Of a stretch of 64,000 nt of DNA, positions 37,275 through 41,129 are shown piece after piece (the first letter of the stretch is position 1; the number at the start of each line of letters is the position of its first letter). Position numbers and translations under genes: made by a program. This DNA comes from Microtetraspora sp. NBRC 13810 (GTDB taxonomy: Bacteria > Actinomycetota > Actinomycetes > Streptosporangiales > Streptosporangiaceae). The stretch spans positions 62,001-126,000 of the forward strand of contig NZ_BSRQ01000026.1 of the NCBI RefSeq assembly GCF_030268685.1. Reading direction: 5' to 3'. The notes beneath the pieces were generated by a model. It made no database searches and was not told the origin of the DNA. It saw only the letters and a program-made list of their open reading frames with translations.

Positions 37275-38048
37275 TCAGAACCAGCCGCGGTGGCGGGCCA
37301 TGGACTGGAGACCGGCGTGCAGGGCCTGCTCGGCCGTGGCCGGGTTGCCGTCGTAGCGGACGGTGAAGCGGTTGTAGGTGTCGTGGCTGGAGTTGAGGAA
37401 GCCGCCGCGGGTGTCGGCCTCCAGGATGACGTCCATCGACTGCGGGCCGGCGATGAAGGTGAGCTCCAGCTCGTTGAAGTGGCGGCGCCAGTCGTGGCCC
37501 GCGTAGTACTCGATCTCCTGGAAGAACGGCATGGTCGAGCCGCGCAGCGTGCCGCGCTCCAGGTCGGCCTTCTTGAACCGGAAGCCCGCGTTGTCCAGCG
37601 CGCGCAGCAGGTGGTCCTGGGCGGGGAGCGGGTTGACGAACAGCGGGTCGAGGTCGCCCTTGTCCAGCGCGCCGGCCAGGGCGAGCTCGGTGGCCACGCC
37701 CAGCCGCATCCCGTGCAGGGGGTGGCCGCCGATGGCGCTGATCGGCGTCTCCCACGGCACCGCGATCTCGAAACGCGCGGTGTTGGACTGCCCGGCGGCG
37801 AGCTGGAACGGGCCGGTGATCTGCTGGCGGAGGAAGCTGTAGTTCGACTGGTACTCGTTGTCGCCGCTCTCGACCTCGACGACGGCGGTGAAGTCGATGA
37901 AGATGCCGTCGACCTTGTGGTCGGCGGAACCGCCACGGAAGTTCACCTCACCGCGGAGGAGCTCACCGGGACGGACGTTGGAGTTGTGCAGAACCGTGTC
38001 GACCTCGACACCGGCGCCGAACGCGGCCATGAGTTTGCGGAACACCAT
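37275..38048 (-). CDS. Sporulation-control protein Spo0M homologue
   Basis: 257 residues from ATG 38048 (MVFRKLMAAFGAGVEVDT), with TGGAG 8 nt upstream on the minus strand. Matches the Spo0M/arrestin-like layout: VDTVLHNSNVRPGELLRGEV, G-x-ADHKVDGI, and the C-terminal HRRGWF-like end after DTYNRFTVRYDGN. In Bacillus Spo0M affects sporulation timing; in actinobacteria it is widespread and its role is unclear. Lies just downstream of the SPFH pair on the same strand, 28 nt from the end of the second SPFH gene. Confidence 0.88.
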   Translation of the reverse strand: MVFRKLMAAFGAGVEVDTVLHNSNVRPGELLRGEVNFRGGSADHKVDGIFIDFTAVVEVESGDNEYQSNYSFLRQQITGPFQLAAGQSNTARFEIAVPWETPISAIGGHPLHGMRLGVATELALAGALDKGDLDPLFVNPLPAQDHLLRALDNAGFRFKKADLERGTLRGSTMPFFQEIEYYAGHDWRRHFNELELTFIAGPQSMDVILEADTRGGFLNSSHDTYNRFTVRYDGNPATAEQALHAGLQSMARHRGWF

Positions 38049-38076: not shown

Positions 38077-39324
38077 TCAGTTGGGTTCAACGGGCGGCTT
38101 GACCCGCCCGTTCCCGCCCGTGATCCCGGGCAGGAGTTGCGCGAGCAGCAGCGTGGACAGCGCCGAGGAGTCCCCGGCCCCCTGTGCCGTCCTGACCACG
38201 ATCGGCTGCGGCGCGCTCTCGGTGAGCTTGGCGCCCACGTCGAGCCTGCGGCGCGCCAGCTCGTACTGGAGCACCGCGCGATTGTCGCGGTAGGAGTCCG
38301 CCAGCCGGCGCAGGGCCTTGGCCTCGTTCTCAGCGGAGGTCAGCTCGGCGCGGCCCCTGGCCTCGATCTCCCAGCGCACCCGCTGCGCCTCGGTCTCGTG
38401 CTCCTCCAGCATCCGCGCCACGTCCTTGCGCGCGGTGTTGTGGGCCGCCTTGACCTCGACGATCCGGGCGTCGCGGGTCTTCTTCGCCCGCTCGATCTCC
38501 ATCAGCAGCGTGTCGATCCTGCGCTTCCTGGTCAGCTCCCACTCCCGCTCGTAGGCCGACAGCTCCTTGGCGACCTTCTCCCGGGTGGCGAGGTGCTGCT
38601 GGTAGGTGTCGGGCAACTGCACGTCGGGGATGTTCGCGCCGGTGACCCGGACGCCGTACCTGCCGAGCTGGCGGTTCAGCGCGTCCTGCATGTCGCCCAC
38701 ATCAGAGCCGCGCAGGTCGTAGGCGCGCTCGGTGTGCACCTTGCGGCTGCGCTGGCGGATCGCGTCCTGCACGGCGCTGGACAGCACCAGGTCGAAGTTG
38801 CCCGCGCCGATCGTCCGGACGAACGCCACCGGGTCGACGATGCGGAACTTCAGGAAGAACTCGATCGCCTTCAGCGGGACGTTCTCGGCCGTCGGGCAGG
38901 CCGAGATGGGCGCCGTGTAGGGGATCTCGGTCGAGGTGTCCACCACCGCGTCCACCCGGTCCCACGGCAGCCACAGGTAGTGCCGGCCCGGCTCCAGCGT
39001 GCCGGTGATCGCCCCCCACCTGCTCCGCACGCCCGTGGTGCCCTGCTCGATCTCGATGATCGAGCGCCGCCACACCCAGACCAGCCCGGCGGCGAGGGAG
39101 ACCGCCGCGCCCAGCCAGGCGAACAGCGCGAGGGCTCCGCCGGCGAAGATCCCGGTGCCGGCCAGGTAGAGGGCCAGGAAGAGCAGCGACGTCCACGCCA
39201 GGCCGCGCCGGTCCTTGGGGATCACCACGGGGACGAGCTGGCCCTGCTCGCCGCCGCGGAGCAACTGGCGGATCTCGGACCAGGAGGCCAGGGAATCCTT
39301 GATCTTGGAGAACTCGCGGTTCAT
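38077..39324 (-). CDS. SPFH/band 7 membrane protein (second of pair)
   Basis: 415 residues starting at ATG 39324, which overlaps the previous stop by four bases. Two adjacent hydrophobic segments at about 45-85, then an SPFH domain (about 85-265; EQGTTGVRSRWG, GRHYLWLPWDRV) followed by a long alpha-helical, charged coiled-coil (about 265-370; KVAKELSAYEREWELTRKRR). SPFH proteins form membrane-bound rings or scaffolds. With its upstream partner it is likely to form a hetero-oligomer. The frame continues far upstream in the track but only as a shadow of the partner. Confidence 0.87.
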   Translation of the reverse strand: MNREFSKIKDSLASWSEIRQLLRGGEQGQLVPVVIPKDRRGLAWTSLLFLALYLAGTGIFAGGALALFAWLGAAVSLAAGLVWVWRRSIIEIEQGTTGVRSRWGAITGTLEPGRHYLWLPWDRVDAVVDTSTEIPYTAPISACPTAENVPLKAIEFFLKFRIVDPVAFVRTIGAGNFDLVLSSAVQDAIRQRSRKVHTERAYDLRGSDVGDMQDALNRQLGRYGVRVTGANIPDVQLPDTYQQHLATREKVAKELSAYEREWELTRKRRIDTLLMEIERAKKTRDARIVEVKAAHNTARKDVARMLEEHETEAQRVRWEIEARGRAELTSAENEAKALRRLADSYRDNRAVLQYELARRRLDVGAKLTESAPQPIVVRTAQGAGDSSALSTLLLAQLLPGITGGNGRVKPPVEPN

Positions 39325-40937
39325 CGGACCTCCTCCCCGGCACCCGCCGGGTGCGGCGGGACCGGTGCGCTCGGCCGTACGGCGGAGCCTTGGTCGGGTG
39401 CGGCGAGCAGGGCGGCGATCTCGGTCTCCCGCGCCGCGACCCGGTCGCGGATCTCGCCCATCCTGGACCGGATCGCCGCCATGTCCTCGGCGGAGAACAG
39501 CGCGGCGCCGCGGCCGCCGATGAGCTGCTGGGCCAGGGCCAGGAAGTCGATGTCCCCGCCGGCCCCGCCGTCGCCGACCTGGACGACGCGCGGCAGCCGC
39601 GCGGCGACCGACTCCAGCTTGTCCAGCAGGTCGGTCTGGAACCGGTAGTCGAGGATCTCCGGCGCCCCGGCGGCCGACAGCGCCCTGATGTCCAGCGCCT
39701 GGGCCTCCAGCAGGGCCGCGTTGGCGTTCGCCGTGCTCTCCGCCTCCACCAGCCGCTGCCGGGCCTGCGCCTTGGCCTTGTGGGACTCCCGCTCCAGGGC
39801 GGTGTCCATCTGCGCCTGGTAACCGGCGATCTCGGCGTGGATCGCGGACAGCGTCTCGTGCAGCCCGGCCAGTTCCTTGGCCAGGTCGCCCTCGTTCTGC
39901 TCCTTGCGCAGCTGGAGCTCGTACTCGTAGGTGTAGGCCTCCTTGGCGACCCGCACCATCTCCGGCGCCGCCAGGTCCATCCGGTACTCCTGGCTGGAGG
40001 GCTCGGCGTGCGTGATGTTGACGTCGGTGAGGCGTACGGCCGGCAGGAACTGCTGGTTGAGGTTCTCCAGCATGCCGTGCGTGTTCTCGCCCACCAGGTC
40101 GTAGATGTCCTCGGCGCGCTGGGCGTAGATCAGGCTGCGGGTGACCTCGCTGATCGCGTTCTGCAGCTTGGCCTGGAAGCCGCCGACCGAGCCGAGCACG
40201 AAGATGAACTCCGCCGGGTCCTCGATCCGGAACTGCAGGAAGAGGTCGACGCTCGCCTTGACGCCCTGCTGGGTGGGGGCCTCGCTGATCGGCGCGTTGA
40301 AGGGGTACTCGCGGGTCGTGTTGACGATGTAGCTGACCCGTTTCCACGGGTTGAACAGCGTCACCCGGCCCGGTTCGGCGATCTCCACCAGCTTGCCGAA
40401 CTTCGTGATCAGCGCGCGGCAGCCCTCCGGCACCATCACCACGCTGCGGCGCCACCACAGGAAGACCGCGGCCACCAGCAGCACGGCCCAGTAGTGCGGG
40501 CCGAACAGCACCCGGGCGCCGTCGGGCAGGCCGGTGGCGACCAGCCCGGCCAGGCCGAGCGCCACGAGCACCACCAGCGGCACGACCAGCTTCACCGCTC
40601 CGCTCCTGGGGATCACCACCGGCGAGATGACGTGCATGGCACGGCCGCCCTCGCCCTGCCCGGAGAAGCTGCGGTTGAGGATCTCGCCGGCCTCGGCGAG
40701 GGAGGCCGGGCGGGCCTCGATCTGGGTGCCGGTCGACGCCGCCTGGTCCCGGGCGGCGGCGAAGTCGTGCGGGTCGAGGCGGAAGGCCGCGCCCTGCCCG
40801 CCCTGGAGCTGGCCGGCGGCCTGGTTCACCAGCCCGCCGACCATCTGCCCGACCGCCGAGCGCGGGTCACCTCCTCCGGCGACGCTCTGGGCGACGCCCA
40901 TCGCCTGGTCGAGGATCGCCTGTCGTGGTCGAGACAT
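39321..40937 (-). CDS. SPFH/band 7 membrane protein (first of pair)
   Basis: 538 residues. An N-terminal 90-residue soluble part rich in Gly, Ala and Gln, two hydrophobic segments (about 117-160), the SPFH domain (about 165-345; VPEGCRALITKFGK, LFNPWKRVSYIVNT, QFRIEDPAEFIF), then a coiled coil (about 345-440) and a C-terminal Ala-rich region. Same order as its partner, so the two look like an old duplication. CGGAGG-type ribosome-binding site 8 nt from the ATG. A 12-bp-arm palindrome lies 15 nt upstream of the start. Confidence 0.87.
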   Translation of the reverse strand: MSRPRQAILDQAMGVAQSVAGGGDPRSAVGQMVGGLVNQAAGQLQGGQGAAFRLDPHDFAAARDQAASTGTQIEARPASLAEAGEILNRSFSGQGEGGRAMHVISPVVIPRSGAVKLVVPLVVLVALGLAGLVATGLPDGARVLFGPHYWAVLLVAAVFLWWRRSVVMVPEGCRALITKFGKLVEIAEPGRVTLFNPWKRVSYIVNTTREYPFNAPISEAPTQQGVKASVDLFLQFRIEDPAEFIFVLGSVGGFQAKLQNAISEVTRSLIYAQRAEDIYDLVGENTHGMLENLNQQFLPAVRLTDVNITHAEPSSQEYRMDLAAPEMVRVAKEAYTYEYELQLRKEQNEGDLAKELAGLHETLSAIHAEIAGYQAQMDTALERESHKAKAQARQRLVEAESTANANAALLEAQALDIRALSAAGAPEILDYRFQTDLLDKLESVAARLPRVVQVGDGGAGGDIDFLALAQQLIGGRGAALFSAEDMAAIRSRMGEIRDRVAARETEIAALLAAPDQGSAVRPSAPVPPHPAGAGEEVR

Positions 40938-40951
40938 CCATCACACCTCCG

Positions 40952-40977
40952 TATATTCACCTGGACAGGTGGATATA
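40952..40977. promoter_or_regulatory. Palindromic operator candidate for the SPFH operon
   Basis: TATATTCACCTG (40952-40963), two-base spacer, CAGGTGGATATA (40966-40977): 12-bp arms with one mismatch. It sits 15-40 bases before the SPFH start codon and just upstream of the ribosome-binding site (complement of CCTCC at 40946-40950). Nothing else in the 190-bp divergent region with uvrB is as symmetric. Confidence 0.65.
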
Positions 40978-41129
40978 TCACGTCACGTAGTTGTACGTAC
41001 ACTTTTATTGGCTGAAACGTGTAACTGCAGGGATAGTCAAGGGGGGCGGCCTTGCGAACCGCTTGACGGCCGATTGCGCGGCTTCCGGTCCGGCCGGTTC
41101 TGTCGGTGGCGCCGCCTAGAGTGGGTCAG

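Follow-up and report, generated by a model that had tools for sequence, protein, structure and literature searches.

What controls a pair of adjacent SPFH genes in an actinomycete, and does that control point to a function for their products? To our knowledge, the role of most bacterial SPFH proteins is still obscure. We analysed a stretch of 64,000 nucleotides from Microtetraspora sp. NBRC 13810 (hereafter the window; the whole genome measures 8.97 Mb). A sequence-only reading of this stretch had proposed that two SPFH genes with the same domain order are translationally coupled, followed by Spo0M on the same strand, and governed by a 26-bp palindrome acting as a dimeric operator.

The SPFH1–SPFH2–Spo0M operon

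Three genes make up the operon, and a Shine-Dalgarno sequence precedes the first of them.

39321-40937, minus strand: SPFH1, 538 aa, with a Band_7 domain (PF01145) and two hydrophobic segments ahead of the SPFH domain
38077-39324, minus strand: SPFH2, 415 aa, with a Band_7 domain (PF01145); its ATG overlaps the stop codon of SPFH1 (ATGA)
37275-38048, minus strand: Spo0M, 257 aa (PF07070)
40946-40950, minus strand: Shine-Dalgarno sequence GGAGG of SPFH1, by direct reading, one base off the palindrome

Both SPFH proteins belong to the SPFH/Band_7 superfamily, with Pfam E-values of 4.8e-15 for SPFH1 and 7.3e-22 for SPFH2 (56.5 and 78.7 bits against a cut-off of 23.6). They are paralogues, and the profiles of the two families align over 343 columns, from a common PVVIP motif through the hydrophobic segments and the SPFH domain to the coiled coil. 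The idea of two SPFH proteins with the same domain order is therefore borne out. Spo0M is an arrestin-fold protein, and the third gene product matched PF07070 over residues 4-215 (positions 1-212 of the 213 in the profile, E = 1.1e-70). The divergent neighbour of SPFH1 is uvrB (Pfam), and three more Band_7 matches lie elsewhere in the Microtetraspora genome. PADLOC returned no match for SPFH1, SPFH2 or Spo0M, and on this ground we dropped a reading of the operon as a defence system.

The locus was compared with 80 named relatives that carry the SPFH pair, all from other genera, which together with the window gave 81 upstream regions. The most similar SPFH1 proteins among these relatives (81-84% identity) came from Streptosporangium sp. 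KLBMP 9127, Spongiactinospora and Thermocatellispora. The paralogous SPFH genes stand side by side in 80 of 80 loci. Start and stop codons overlap by 4 nt in the window and also overlap in 56 of the 80 relatives (37 by 4 nt, 17 by 1 nt and 2 by 11 nt); among the 24 relatives counted as lacking the overlap, L103 is miscalled. Spo0M follows on the same minus strand in the window, and 68 of the 80 relatives are alike in this respect; the other 12 are L074, L083 and ten Nocardiopsis-type or unplaced loci. The overlap and the gene order were thus confirmed.

The two proteins had also been described as lacking HflK/HflC features. HflK and HflC each have one N-terminal membrane segment, and their SPFH domain lies outside the cytoplasm. 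Against the single segment of HflK/C, hydropathy places two or more hydrophobic windows ahead of the SPFH domain in 23 of 27 SPFH1 proteins and in 19 of 26 SPFH2 proteins. Neither protein qualifies as an HflK/HflC equivalog: SPFH1 reached 28.5 bits of the 159.4 required by TIGR01933 and 16.9 of the 134.4 required by TIGR01932, and SPFH2 reached 27.1 of 159.4 with TIGR01933. The description holds for these scores, which are far below cut-off, but not for the search of solved structures, where the best PDB sequence match of SPFH1 is HflK itself (E = 2.5e-6). This match, and the arrangement of the two genes as an adjacent hetero-pair, are what one would expect of a divergent HflK/HflC acting with FtsH. 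The equivalog scores and the additional hydrophobic windows speak against that interpretation, as does the sequence of SPFH2, which is nearer to stomatin (its nearest solved structure is an archaeal stomatin), and we consider it very improbable. A structure search was conducted with the SPFH2 model only (pLDDT 70), the SPFH1 model being poor (pLDDT 57). High-probability matches came from chains of HflK/C, erlin, stomatin, prohibitin, QmcA and flotillin, a likeness to known subunits of SPFH rings and cages, though the TM-scores by query length were low (0.21-0.37).

The palindrome upstream of SPFH1

40952-40977, no strand assigned: 26-bp palindrome, arms of 12 with one mismatch and 2 nt between them; found in this genome only
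40972-40979, minus strand: GATATATC element reaching into one end of the palindrome; exact copies in 14 of 81 upstream regions

The palindrome exists as had been reported. It is a near-perfect 12+2+12 structure placed 15 nt ahead of the SPFH1 start codon and one base from the Shine-Dalgarno sequence, a position that would suit a dedicated dimeric repressor using it as the operator of the operon, and just 7 of 1000 dinucleotide shuffles of the 186-bp intergenic stretch reach its score. Palindromes of the same kind (arms of 12, at most one mismatch, gap of at most 8) number 89 in 464 kb of the genome, this one counted, and most of them are G+C-rich. The palindrome is therefore unusual for its place and not remarkable in a scan of the whole window.

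It had been suggested that a search of the genome for the palindrome would lead to a regulator gene carrying its own site. We found no second site with up to 3 mismatches in the 8.97-Mb genome. The 14-bp core CACCTGNNCAGGTG has a single exact copy, and allowing one mismatch adds 30 copies (reversed control: 90). Half-sites are close to the control rate: with up to one mismatch there are 11, the palindrome's own two among them, compared with 7 for the reversed control. The same reading had made the operator depend on conservation of the palindrome in relatives that have the operon. None of the 80 named relatives presents it within 180 nt upstream of SPFH1 (the closest, L032, differs at 9 of 26 positions), and it is also absent upstream of SPFH1 in a second set of 16 relatives, which partly overlap the 80 and some of which have a misplaced start. 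The operator reading fails because the palindrome is not conserved in relatives with the operon, all of them outside the genus. We view a dedicated repressor at this site as highly unlikely, and the palindrome itself is probably incidental or species-specific.

A role as an RNA leader element was rejected as well: the 94-nt leader, with its start assumed, folds no better than shuffled sequences (z = 0.25, 117 of 200 at least as good), and Rfam gave two matches, both far below gathering scores. Separately, in 8 of the 81 regions (L032, L034, L036, L037, L040, L041, L060 and L089) the Shine-Dalgarno sequence of SPFH1 lies inside a small inverted repeat, ACCTCGGAGGT or ACACCGGAGGTGT, which is absent from the window's copy.

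A conserved direct repeat upstream of SPFH1

About 70 bp further upstream of SPFH1 than the palindrome, we identified a direct repeat (hereafter the box) next to a hexamer resembling a -10 element.

41049-41066, minus strand: direct repeat TCAAGCG-GTTC-GCAAGGC with an 11-bp period, proposed response-regulator box
41035-41040, minus strand: -10-like hexamer TTGACT, separated by exactly 10 nt from the second GCAAG word in the repeat; putative promoter element

Of the 81 SPFH1 upstream regions, each taken as 300 nt, 69 contain the words YAAG and YAA(G/C) with an 11-bp period; the patterns were composed after viewing these sequences, and the relatives do not count as independent samples. Each of nine alternative periods between 7 and 16 turned up in 0-4 of the 81 regions, and simple shuffles presented the 11-bp pattern in 1.6 regions on average (maximum 5). 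The pattern followed by TNNNNT exactly 10 nt on was detected in 70 of the 81 regions, whereas 200 shuffles gave a mean of 0.05 and a maximum of 1. Across the 69 aligned sites, T occupies hexamer positions 1 and 6 in every case, although the pattern used there did not require it. Within the half-sites, G stands at position 5 in all 69 first copies and in 67 of the 69 second copies, and C predominates at position 2. Eleven regions are without the box: L083 and the ten loci that are Nocardiopsis-type or unplaced. The box remains with SPFH1 where uvrB sits elsewhere (L102) and also in Nonomuraea where other genes part it from uvrB.

Two further observations concern these upstream regions. Upstream of SPFH1 in L083, we noticed by eye possibly three degenerate 11-bp units (GCAAGCG, GCGACCG and GTGAGTA) located 10 nt before TACGGT. 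In several Nonomuraea loci (L044 2829-4859, and similarly elsewhere), uvrB and SPFH1 are parted by an ABC transporter and an XRE-like regulator of 77 aa (named by reading), and a ATAGCACACCTACTAC-like motif recurs in the divergent region of these loci.

OmpR/PhoB-type activators that bind at -35 use two half-sites one helical turn apart at a fixed distance to the -10 element. The box shows the same organization, with a direct repeat of about 11 bp in 69 of 81 regions and a fixed distance to the predicted -10 in 70 of 81. These features suggest that the box is probably read by a response regulator of the OmpR/PhoB type, which we regard as the candidate class. The hexamer TTGACT of the window and its TTNACT relatives do not have the A usual at -10 position 2, which counts against the promoter model. 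A scan for the sigma-70 consensus gave one match, on the plus strand, and no terminator.

The phylogenetic distribution of the pair extends beyond that of the box. Of 296 genomes of the class, 27 gave SPFH1 relatives at 1e-60, and five of these 27 lie outside the family. In stretches of 6.5-8.5 kb from these five loci the pair is present, and neither a Spo0M match nor the box was detected. Because these loci and the ten Nocardiopsis-type or unplaced ones have the pair without both, the pair probably predates its association with Spo0M and the box. It follows from the same loci that an SPFH scaffold would not depend on control through the box. Ahead of SPFH1, many of the Nocardiopsis-type or extra-family loci without the box (L099-L111 and L272-L275) share a TGTGGGAnGATG-like motif, which would be a different promoter for the same SPFH pair.

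Recurrence of the box at other genes

We built a first profile (R1) from 36 SPFH1 sites and searched 120 genomes of the family at E up to 0.2. This yielded 51 matches: 19 at SPFH1, 6 at a lipoprotein gene, 5 on the 3' side of pfkA, 2 at a GT4 glycosyltransferase (PF00953), 2 at an LCP protein (PF03816), both from one genus, and 17 others. Since about 24 chance matches are expected under these settings, single matches mean little and it is recurrence at homologous genes that counts. The 17 others fit no recurrent unit, being single or ambiguous and in several cases within coding sequence. The lipoprotein gene, the 3' side of pfkA, the GT4 gene and the LCP gene recur independently with the profile made from SPFH1 sites.

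Over all profile searches, the box precedes homologous lipoproteins in 8 genomes of 7 genera, including the Microtetraspora genome itself, and a secreted protein in 4 genomes, each from a different genus; in 9 genomes it is preceded by pfkA. The lipoprotein is followed by a DUF2079 protein in Microtetraspora and G011 (Pfam) and in G092 (by reading). Weak sites were found with fhaA 300-500 nt behind them in two genomes, again including Microtetraspora.

A second profile (R2), composed of 16 SPFH1 sites and 18 other sites, matched all 21 genomes chosen from the box clade (E up to 0.05) and 0 of 4 others (E up to 1), a test that is not independent because many of the 21 genomes supplied training sites. 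The Microtetraspora genome has two strong R2 sites, both of them part of the profile: that of the SPFH operon (25.3 bits) and the one given below, the next site scoring 13.8. In G024 and G141 the box is present and no SPFH1 was detected.

G000:C27:92754-92785: box of the lipoprotein/DUF2079 unit in the Microtetraspora genome, 24.1 bits

The box lies just 3' of pfkA in L196, L197, L204, L205, L207, L239, L248, L253 and L158. At some of these loci the box is directed antisense into a convergent gene, MHYT-like by reading, and a MacSR-like kinase lies past that gene. The box on the pfkA side possibly serves a long leader or a small RNA.

Candidate regulators

The pfkA loci raise the alternative that the box is the site of a MacSR-like two-component system of the NarL type, which would regulate its own operon. 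In 6 of the 9 pfkA loci the box has pfkA on one side and a DUF5931 kinase on the other, with a convergent gene intervening in 5 of them; the kinase and its response regulator, which are MacSR-like, stand directly behind the box in G109 and past the convergent gene in the five other loci. No DUF5931 kinase was seen in the stretch covered at the remaining 3. The MacR site is reportedly an inverted repeat, which counts against this alternative. A search for the kinase further showed that it does not accompany the box throughout: G011 and G079 have boxes and no DUF5931 kinase at E 1e-40, four genomes without box matches (G007, G009, G022 and G057) do have the kinase, and the macSR-like locus of Microtetraspora itself is without a box. 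MacR is therefore disfavoured as the regulator of the box and in our judgement quite unlikely, even though its targets in S. coelicolor are membrane proteins and lipoproteins according to the accessible part of the source (PMC9739842), which counts in its favour.

MtrA is another candidate, which we likewise consider unlikely. Published MtrA sites are direct repeats with a period of about 11 bp, as is the box, and their half-site is GTnAC (from the accessible parts of PMC5650626, PMC13189361 and PMC6265350); in mycobacteria, MtrA controls genes of cell division and the cell wall (from the accessible part of PMC6265350), which also counts for MtrA. The box departs from this half-site with its nearly invariant G at position 5 and predominant C at position 2. 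Moreover, no second copy of the pattern was found in the Microtetraspora genome, and by reading, mtrA was in none of the inspected loci with box matches.

A proposed model of envelope control

We lean towards a model in which the SPFH pair and Spo0M are activated alongside other envelope genes by a probable OmpR/PhoB-type response regulator, as sequence comparison suggests. Transcription would begin a short way past the hexamer at 41035-41040. The putative promoter there lacks a -35 hexamer at the customary position and would need an activator on the direct repeat at 41049-41066. That the box adjoins a -10-like hexamer would fit an activator better than a repressor. The palindrome would lie in the mRNA leader and play no conserved part. 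SPFH1 and SPFH2 may co-assemble into a membrane scaffold with the SPFH part in the cytoplasm, and Spo0M would be made together with this scaffold from the same operon.

The operon likely belongs to a small envelope regulon, because the same box precedes other, mostly envelope, units in related genera. These units, together with the parallels from B. subtilis given below, whose sources were accessible in part, point to envelope maintenance as the function of the operon. The earlier suggestion of a stress-induced membrane scaffold under a specific repressor survives in part: the evidence points to a paired scaffold, specific control and a link to the envelope, but does not support the palindrome as the control element. 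More tentatively, it is possible that an undescribed envelope regulon exists in Streptosporangiaceae, in which a response regulator that recognizes a direct-repeat GCAAGC box jointly activates the SPFH scaffold and Spo0M, the lipoprotein/DUF2079 unit, the secreted protein and, in some genera, the GT4 sugar transferase, the LCP protein and a second two-component system. Such a regulon would join membrane scaffolding to the assembly of cell-wall polymers.

A promoter box common to lipoprotein and cell-wall genes offers a testable functional setting for the SPFH pair, and the box is a handle for tracing its regulator. A search of the accessible literature found no paper combining SPFH and Spo0M, and in a search on SPFH with four genus names, SPFH was absent among the matches listed.

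Comparison with known systems

The operon resembles HflK/HflC of E. coli in its adjacent genes for two related SPFH proteins and in the sequence match of SPFH1 to HflK. It differs in having two hydrophobic segments, Spo0M and no protease gene. Stomatins (PH1511 and human stomatin) are the closest solved relatives of SPFH2 by sequence, and their fold was matched too. Unlike stomatin, the proteins described here form a hetero-pair, in which SPFH1 has a long coiled coil and an extra N-terminal region.

PhoB/MtrA-type boxes have two half-sites one helical turn apart (from sources accessible in part), and PhoB promoters keep a fixed distance to the -10 element. Both properties are found in the box upstream of SPFH1, whereas its half-site is GCAAGC instead of GTnAC.

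The B. subtilis scaffold proteins FloT and FloA and Spo0M provide a further comparison. According to the accessible part of PMC3498285, spo0M, yuaG (floT) and yqfA are core sigma-W genes, so that scaffold genes and spo0M share envelope-stress control there, and FloA was found in the Spo0M interactome (accessible part of PMC5325327). The genes in B. subtilis lie in separate operons under an ECF sigma factor, whereas those described here form one operon behind a direct-repeat box. The existence of this SPFH–Spo0M operon suggests that the common control seen in Bacillus may reflect a working partnership.
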